Below are positions 61,373 through 63,361 of a DNA stretch of 64,000 nucleotides, one piece after another (position 1 is the first letter of the stretch; the number at the start of each line of letters is the position of its first letter). Under the pieces are notes generated by a model. The model had not been told where the DNA came from. It saw only the letters and a program-made list of their open reading frames with translations, and did no database searches. The DNA is taken from the NCBI GenBank assembly GCA_031292625.1, contig JARLGU010000050.1, positions 1 to 64,000 of the forward strand, given 5' to 3'. Both the position numbers and the translations under genes were made by a program. Source of the stretch: Capsulimonadaceae bacterium. GTDB taxonomy: Bacteria > Armatimonadota > Armatimonadia > Armatimonadales > Capsulimonadaceae.

Positions 61373-62227
61373 CTAACGCCGGCCGCCCCCAAATCCGCCG
61401 CCAAATCCGCCGCCGCGACCACCCTGGCCGCCGCGACCGCCCTGACCGCCGCGACCACCCTGGCCGCCGCCGCCGCGACCGCCGCGACCACGTCCGCCGT
61501 CACGCCGCTCGCCGCCAAAGCCCTCTTCGGCATTCAACCGGCGCTGCTGCTGCTGCTGCAGCGCAATATCGGCCGTGGTAAGACGCTTCTGTCCGGGAAG
61601 AATGTCGCCCTTGTAGATCCACACCTTGATACCAATGTGACCGTAAGTCGTCAGCGCTTCCGTAAAACCATAGTCGATGTCCGCACGAAGGGTCTGAAGA
61701 GGAATCTTGCCCAAACGATCCGTCTCGCGACGAGCCATTTCCGAGCCGCCCAAACGGCCCGCGCACAAAATGCGAATACCCTTGGCGCCCAGCTTCATTG
61801 CGCGGGTGACTGCCTGACGCATCGCTCGCTTATACGAAATGCGCTTCTGAATCTGCTGCGCAATGCTCTCAGCCACGAGCTGCGCATCCAATTCGGGATG
61901 GCGCACCTCGGTGACATTGACAACCACTTCACGCTTCTTCGTCAAACGCCGAAGATCATGCGAGAGATCCTCGATCCCCTTGCCGGCCCGGCCGATGATG
62001 ATGCCCGGCTTGGCCGTATGCAGGTTGAGCTGCAGCTTATCCGGCCACCGCTCGATCTCGATGCGCGAGACCGACGCATTCGCCAGTTCGCGCTTCTTCT
62101 TCACAAAGGTGCGGATCTTCTGATCCTCCACCAAAGCATCCGAATAGCCCTTATCGAGATACCACTTACTGTCCCAGTCCCGGATCACGCCGATCCGAAA
62201 TCCAACAGGATGTACCTTTTGACCCAA
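61373..62227 (-). CDS. rpsC: 30S ribosomal protein S3 with RGG-type C-terminal tail
   Basis: The 284-residue protein has the KH domain with its GRAG loop (79-82) and the C-terminal domain ([19 protein letters not shown]). The last 50 residues are Gly/Arg/Gln-rich ([15 protein letters not shown]). It starts with TTG at 62227 behind AAGGGAGG. Confidence 0.95.
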
Positions 62228-62239
62228 AATCTGCCTCCC

Positions 62240-63067
62240 TTACGCCTGCTCGGCGGGCTTCTCGTCGCCCGCGGCAGTCGCTTGCTCGCCGGCGGCTTCC
62301 GCCGTCGCTTCAATGGCCGCTTCGGGCGCCGCGGCCTGGGGCGCCGCCGGAGCAATCACTTCCGGCGCGATTTGTGTGACCGGCTTTTCAACCGGCGTCT
62401 CGGGTTCGGCTTTCACCGCCGCCTTCGCGACCGGCGCAGCCTTGGGCTTGGGACGCGCGGCAGGGCGACGCTTGGGCGCTGGGCGCGGCGTCTCCAACAG
62501 CACGATCGTCAAATGCGTCGTGCGCTTGAGAATCCGGTAGGCCCGGCCCTGGGCGCGAGCTCGGATCCGCTTCAGCGTCGGACCGCCATCTGCAATCACC
62601 GCATGGACCTTGAGCTCATCTGTTGAGGCGCCCCACCCGTCAAGAGCGTTCGCGGCAGCGCTGCGCAGCACCTTTAGAATCGGGTCGGAAGCATGGTTGG
62701 GCACGAAACGAAGAATATCAATCGCCTCCGAAACCCGCTTGCCCTTGATCGCTTCAAGCACAAAGCGAGCCTTTCGCGGCGACATGCGAATAAACTTCGC
62801 AACAGCTCGCGCCTCTGCAACCACATTAACCTTAATCTGCTTGCCGTCCGCGTGCTGTGAGATGCCAGCCTCTATTTCGCGCGCTTCCATTCGCAAGACT
62901 TCAGGACGGCTGGTGAAGACATCGATGTTGACGATGCCCGTCTTCTTGTCTTTCTTCACCTTCACCCTGGACACCGGCGTGTGACGCTTCTCGGTGTTGC
63001 GAATGTGCTCCTCGATAACAGCCTGGGTCGCGCGGTCCTTCCCGGCCGTATTAATCGGTCGTTCCAT
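62240..63067 (-). CDS. rplV: 50S ribosomal protein L22 with S3 KH-like N-terminal domain
   Basis: The 275-residue protein is over twice normal size. Residues 84-195 are the L22 core (ARAVAKFIRMSPRKARFVL, in part, with RAQGRAYRILKRTTH). Residues 19-83 match the KH region of the neighbouring S3, e.g. VSRVKVKK versus VSRIEIER and the final KQIKVNVV versus REVVVNV; the GxxG loop is missing. Residues 196-275 are Pro/Ala/Glu-rich. ATG 63067 follows GGAGATTACA. A GTG at residue 82 with AAGG before it might make a short form. Confidence 0.92.
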   Translation of the reverse strand: MERPINTAGKDRATQAVIEEHIRNTEKRHTPVSRVKVKKDKKTGIVNIDVFTSRPEVLRMEAREIEAGISQHADGKQIKVNVVAEARAVAKFIRMSPRKARFVLEAIKGKRVSEAIDILRFVPNHASDPILKVLRSAAANALDGWGASTDELKVHAVIADGGPTLKRIRARAQGRAYRILKRTTHLTIVLLETPRPAPKRRPAARPKPKAAPVAKAAVKAEPETPVEKPVTQIAPEVIAPAAPQAAAPEAAIEATAEAAGEQATAAGDEKPAEQA

Positions 63068-63076
63068 TGTAATCTC

Positions 63077-63361
63077 CTAGCGCACCTTGCTGCGGGTATC
63101 TTTCGAACCCGCGTGGCCTTTAAACGTGCGCGTGAGCGCGAACTCACCCAGCTTATGGCCGACCATGTTCTCGGTGATGAACACGGGAATGTGCTTGCGG
63201 CCATCGTGAACCGCCAGCGTATGCCCGATCATCACCGGGAAAATCGTCGAGCGGCGGGACCACGTCTTGAGGATCCGCTTCTCGTTGCGGGCGTTCATAT
63301 CGTCGATTTTTTTCAGTAGTTTCGGGTCAGCGTACGGACCCTTCTTCAGTGAGCGTCCCAT
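63077..63361 (-). CDS. rpsS: 30S ribosomal protein S19
   Basis: The 94-residue protein starts [20 protein letters not shown] and has [21 protein letters not shown], typical of S19. Confidence 0.97.

Follow-up and report, generated by a model that had tools for sequence, protein, structure and literature searches.

The rplV gene in the window, by which we mean the whole stretch of 64,000 nucleotides analysed here (contig JARLGU010000050.1 of a Capsulimonadaceae bacterium), encodes a ribosomal protein L22 (uL22) whose ordinary core is preceded by an additional domain. It is best explained as a degenerate type II KH domain derived from ribosomal protein S3 (uS3), fused in frame to L22, translated, maintained by selection and serving a docking role, and to this explanation as a whole we assign a probability of about 0.7. 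The gene belongs to a series of ribosomal protein genes, identified by position and searches, which are transcribed from the minus strand in the order L2, S19, L22, S3, L16, L29, S17, L14, L24 and L5. The features of the region under discussion are as follows.

63077..63361, minus strand: rpsS (S19), directly upstream of rplV
62240..63067, minus strand: rplV (uL22), 275 aa, with KH-like N-terminal domain, L22 core and acidic Ala/Pro tail
62810..63067, minus strand: N-terminal S3-like domain, putative degenerate KH, residues 1-86 of L22
62498..62806, minus strand: ordinary L22 core, residues 88-190 (PF00237)
62627..62638, minus strand: GWGA loop inside the L22 core
62243..62485, minus strand: Ala/Pro/Glu-rich C-terminal tail of L22, residues 195-275
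61373..62227, minus strand: rpsC (uS3), starting with TTG, next gene downstream of rplV
61910..62128, minus strand: KH domain of S3, residues 34-106, the region homologous to the N-domain of L22, with G-R-A-G intact

The window L22 scores 115 bits against PF00237 (cut-off 28) and 122.6 bits against TIGR01044 (cut-off 73.65), and its gene sits between those of S19 and S3 in an S10-type operon, as befits a member of uL22. Since the Pfam match covers residues 88-190, residues 1-86 are extra; these will be referred to as the N-domain. The core is followed by a low-complexity stretch of about 80 residues. C-terminal tails of 30-120 residues are common on L22 in this phylum with the KH domain present or absent, and the Ala/Pro/Glu tail is not part of the KH trait. 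The neighbouring S3 protein also ends in a long tail (61376-61519), which is Gly/Arg-rich and RGG-like and measures about 50 residues here and up to about 100 in relatives; such tails occur in many families of the phylum, but not in all of them. A different basic N-terminal extension of L22, of about 40 residues (such as RPKTHRENRKKNRPRRVAKNQ), was seen in two proteins of family f9 (L021 and L023), and by eye it is unrelated to the KH domain.

The original prediction had lined up residues 19-83 of L22 with residues 34-106 of the adjacent S3. When only this pair of proteins is compared the match is borderline: a local alignment of the window L22 with S3 did not rise above shuffled sequences (p about 0.17), a global alignment of the segments chosen in that prediction gave p about 0.002, and Pfam scans of single sequences yielded no KH_2 match and nothing beyond chance hits, for the window L22 and for every other carrier of the N-domain. 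Relatives were therefore collected for a family profile. They were gathered through the L22 core and an open frame ahead of it, not through likeness to S3, so that the profile test against S3 is not circular. A profile of the N-domains of the 11 L22 proteins of the phylum which possess one was searched against all PDB chains, and the top 43 matches were S3 (best E 2.5e-5). Positions 10-73 of the profile fell on residues 37-102 of S3, and up to E 10 the matches included no KH protein other than S3, with Era, NusA and RbfA all absent. The score of the real profile against S3 is 38.3 bits, while 150 column-shuffled profiles gave a mean of 4.2 and a maximum of 12.2 bits. In the window's own genome rpsC is the sole match besides L22 (E 2.1e-4), and the strongest match in each of two Clostridium genomes lies next to L22, in a frame (228-233 aa) whose location and length are those of rpsC. 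Profiles of the families f1, f19 and f37, each used alone, found S3 separately, and the domain is still recognisable across families at about 25% identity. The register proposed earlier proved right, hhalign placing L22 20-83 on S3 46-106 (probability 88%, P 2.9e-6). Judged by sequence, the S3 homology is weak from one pair and decisive at the family level, and we are very nearly certain that the N-domain is homologous to S3 and fused to L22.

The predicted secondary structure elements of the N-domain are as follows.

62996..63046, minus strand: predicted first helix, residues 8-24 (AlphaFold)
62951..62974, minus strand: predicted strand, residues 32-39 (VSRVKVKK), S3 equivalent VSRIEIER (AlphaFold and hhalign)
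62912..62932, minus strand: predicted strand, residues 46-52, then the T-S-R-P turn, S3 equivalent T-A-K-P (AlphaFold and hhalign)
62852..62905, minus strand: two predicted helices, residues 55-60 and 62-72, with R-M-E-A-R between them where S3 has GxxG
62789..62836, minus strand: predicted strand, residues 78-93, in which the final KH strand passes into the first L22 strand with no linker (AlphaFold)

An AlphaFold model of the N-domain together with the L22 core (20 sequences) reached a pLDDT of 89.4 and a pTM of 0.80, with helices at 8-24, 55-60 and 62-72 and strands at 32-39, 46-52 and 78-93. The N-domain alone gave a middling pLDDT of 72.6 and the order helix-strand-strand-helix-strand, the two later helices being fused; both models were built on few sequences. 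The predicted order of elements is that of a type II KH domain, so that the KH topology expected from the original prediction was obtained. S3 chains head the Foldseek matches in the PDB for the N-domain alone (E 4.6e-4 for 5o5j_C; TM up to 0.74), and RbfA (2dyj) and the GTPase EngA rank below them; the longer model with the core returned L22 chains only, among the matches listed. The element-by-element correspondence claimed at the outset is borne out for the strands, the TSRP/TAKP turn and the last strand, while the first helix aligns only loosely. The replacement of the RNA-contacting GxxG loop of S3 by a Met-Glu-Ala-Arg stretch was also read correctly, for the window has R-M-E-A-R at this place and GxxG is absent from all 11 carriers. 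Because it is missing throughout, we speak of a degenerate KH domain and not of a canonical RNA-binding one. The PDB profile search, hhalign, the shuffled profiles, the AlphaFold topology and Foldseek agree on the degenerate KH module that had been proposed to lie ahead of L22, and a fold of this kind is, on the models, highly probable. In family f37 (L103 and L104) the N-domain is lengthened by an insertion, some seven residues long (EERDKDR and EERDKNR), near the position of S3's GxxG.

A survey of L22 across the phylum, recommended with the original prediction, found the N-domain in 11 of the 277 genomes in which L22 was detected. The carriers fall into four families: all six genomes of f1, the window's family, in which L22 was found (a seventh, 69% complete, gave no L22 match and is left out of this count), one of f19, two of f4 and two of f37. 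With the N-domain profile, E falls from 2.7e-19 among carriers to 4e-9 among the remaining matches, and those of the latter which were compared by position are rpsC. L22 of the sister family f2 is ordinary and lacks the N-domain. No carrier was present among 398 Bacillota genomes searched with the N-domain profile, where two matches near 1e-8 were both rpsC, and a search with the whole L22 yielded two Clostridium L22 proteins, both lacking the N-domain.

The carriers are spread over different parts of a FastTree phylogeny built from nine ribosomal proteins, several of whose deep branches are weakly supported. A tree of KH domains separates all 11 N-domains from every S3, also from the S3 encoded in the same genome (branch support 80/91, with long branches). 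Since the N-domains are not nested within the S3 proteins of their own genomes, they do not stem from a recent copying of the neighbouring rpsC. The partial duplication of rpsC suggested earlier thus holds as regards descent from the KH domain of S3, and fails, on this tree and on the scatter over four families, as regards a recent copy of the genome's own gene. One old origin followed by losses, gene transfer, or two origins are all possible. The fusion may have arisen more than once, in an ancestor of the f1, f19 and f4 domains and separately in f37, and we consider this to have a little less than an even chance; it concerns the history only. The profiles of f1, f19 and f4 match one another and that of f37 matches only S3, among the matches listed. 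The core motif WGA is found in all carriers of f1, f19 and f4 and was seen in no other L22, that of f37 included; f37 is placed elsewhere on the ribosomal tree, and its N-domains bear the insertion in the helix turn. Against a separate f37 origin stands the KH-domain tree, in which all of the N-domains group together apart from S3. The GWGA loop may contact the KH domain.

The rplV reading frame opens directly past the S19 stop codon, and its start is preceded by the following site.

63073..63078, minus strand: AGGAGA, Shine-Dalgarno-like, before the ATG of the N-domain and overlapping the S19 stop codon

A site resembling AGGAG or GGAG stands a few nucleotides ahead of the N-domain start in most carriers, that of f19 being poorer. 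The start codons which lie internally, near the L22 core, differ between genomes, and none is conserved among the carriers. The dN/dS of the N-domain is 0.05 for two genomes of one genus and 0.15-0.16 for other pairs within f1, with a value of 0.34 between the window and the relative closest to it; in the more distant pairs the synonymous sites approach saturation, and in f37 and f4 they are past it. Where measurable, dN/dS is lower in the core and higher in the tail than in the N-domain. On these signs the N-domain looks to be under purifying selection and to be made as protein. Its faster change than the core, taken with its absence in the sister family, indicates that it is dispensable over evolution.

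These results allow several other explanations of the domain to be weighed. The extension might be an unrelated domain which resembles S3 by chance, or by convergence on a common alpha-beta fold; the single-pair alignment near chance level and the lack of a Pfam KH domain in any member would fit this. We regard it as very improbable given that S3 alone among the KH families was matched by the family profile, that shuffled profiles fell far short of the real score, that blind searches, L22 itself aside, ranked rpsC first, and that S3 heads the Foldseek list. An untranslated N-terminal part, with L22 starting at the internal GTG near residue 82, was the case named against the original prediction, and the window does have a weak AAGG ahead of that codon. 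It is scarcely credible when the upstream ATG follows a strong AGGAGA, most other carriers have similar sites, the candidate internal starts vary by genome, and the N-domain itself is under apparent purifying selection.

That the N-domain is a tolerated relic lacking a function would accord with its patchy distribution and its faster change than the core; we think it unlikely, as dN/dS lies well below 1 and the domain can be recognised across families at such low identity. Regulation is a further possibility, the N-domain binding RNA so as to control its own operon or another mRNA in place of any service on the ribosome. The domain is basic, and its gene lies in an operon for ribosomal proteins, of a type that L4 autoregulates in E. 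coli. The loss of GxxG in all carriers, the predicted stiff attachment to a structural protein and a scan of the window at Rfam gathering thresholds, which returned no RNA element, make this quite unlikely.

For the S3-derived domain fused to L22 we propose the following role and origin. As a part of uL22 the N-domain would belong to the 50S subunit and lie at its outer surface beside the tunnel exit. uL22 is described as lining the tunnel and, with uL23, uL24 and uL29, as encircling the exit (PMC5071890, PMC13338714). By analogy with this known placement of uL22, and given its N-terminal location and the stiff joint of the shared strand, the outer surface near the exit is the most likely position of the N-domain. 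The domain is basic (pI 8-10). Without GxxG it would not hold single-stranded RNA in the classical KH manner, and it could form an extra docking module for rRNA, a neighbouring protein or an assembly protein. Such docking, whether the partner is rRNA or a protein and whether it takes place during assembly or at the exit, we rate as an even chance. The fusion may have originated by a tandem duplication across the adjacent rplV and rpsC, which would have placed a truncated rpsC ahead of a copy of rplV, the first rplV copy then being lost. Adjacency of the two genes, duplication, truncation of rpsC and loss of the first rplV would together produce exactly the order of domains observed, and at the present divergence such an event would not be expected to leave a trace in the DNA. 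More tentatively, and with the odds somewhat against it, a domain of a small-subunit protein may have been moved to a large-subunit protein and reused as a lineage-specific docking platform at the tunnel exit, for exit-port factors or rRNA, possibly twice independently and with accompanying changes in the L22 core (GWGA loop).

An L22 with an S3-type degenerate KH domain at its front is apparently an undescribed design of ribosomal protein; in the papers searched we found no description of a KH-L22 fusion or of an L22 extension in Armatimonadota, and in NCBIfam no family with a KH-L22 architecture. To our knowledge the gain of whole folded domains by bacterial ribosomal proteins is uncommon, and we know of no case of domain exchange between the two ribosomal subunits, nor was one found in the literature searched. 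Two neighbouring ribosomal genes appear here to have produced a third architecture. If located at the exit port, the N-domain would alter a docking place of chaperones, processing enzymes and targeting factors, and carriers and non-carriers in sister families permit a comparison. KH domains lacking GxxG easily escape prediction from sequence (PMC9603430), and other ribosomal "extensions" may therefore hide similar domains.

Among known systems, bacterial uL22 (PF00237, TIGR01044) has the same core, to which the window protein adds an N-terminal domain of 86 residues that is predicted to be folded. The NCBIfam family NF008917 (L22/unknown domain fusion) likewise joins L22 to an added domain, but there L22 stands in front and the added part follows; the window protein matches it only in the L22 portion and along some of the tail, far below the cut-off (81 bits against 526). 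Chloroplast uL22c, as described in the excerpt consulted (PMC5071890), is nearly doubled in length by N- and C-terminal extensions, for which that excerpt mentions no KH domain, and on this description it would differ from the window protein. RbfA, FMRP KH0 and MTH1203 are degenerate KH domains lacking GxxG (PMC9603430) and so resemble the N-domain in fold, but none of them is part of uL22; with RbfA the likeness is one of fold alone (2dyj), the N-domain profile giving no match to it up to E 10. The closest counterpart is the KH domain of uS3 (PF07650, KH_2), the only KH family matched by the N-domain profile, which shares with it the type II order, the VSR(I/V) strand, the T-x-(R/K)-P turn and the final strand. 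Unlike that of uS3, the KH domain of L22 is carried by a large-subunit protein, lacks GxxG, and comes without the N-terminal segment and the C-terminal domain of S3.
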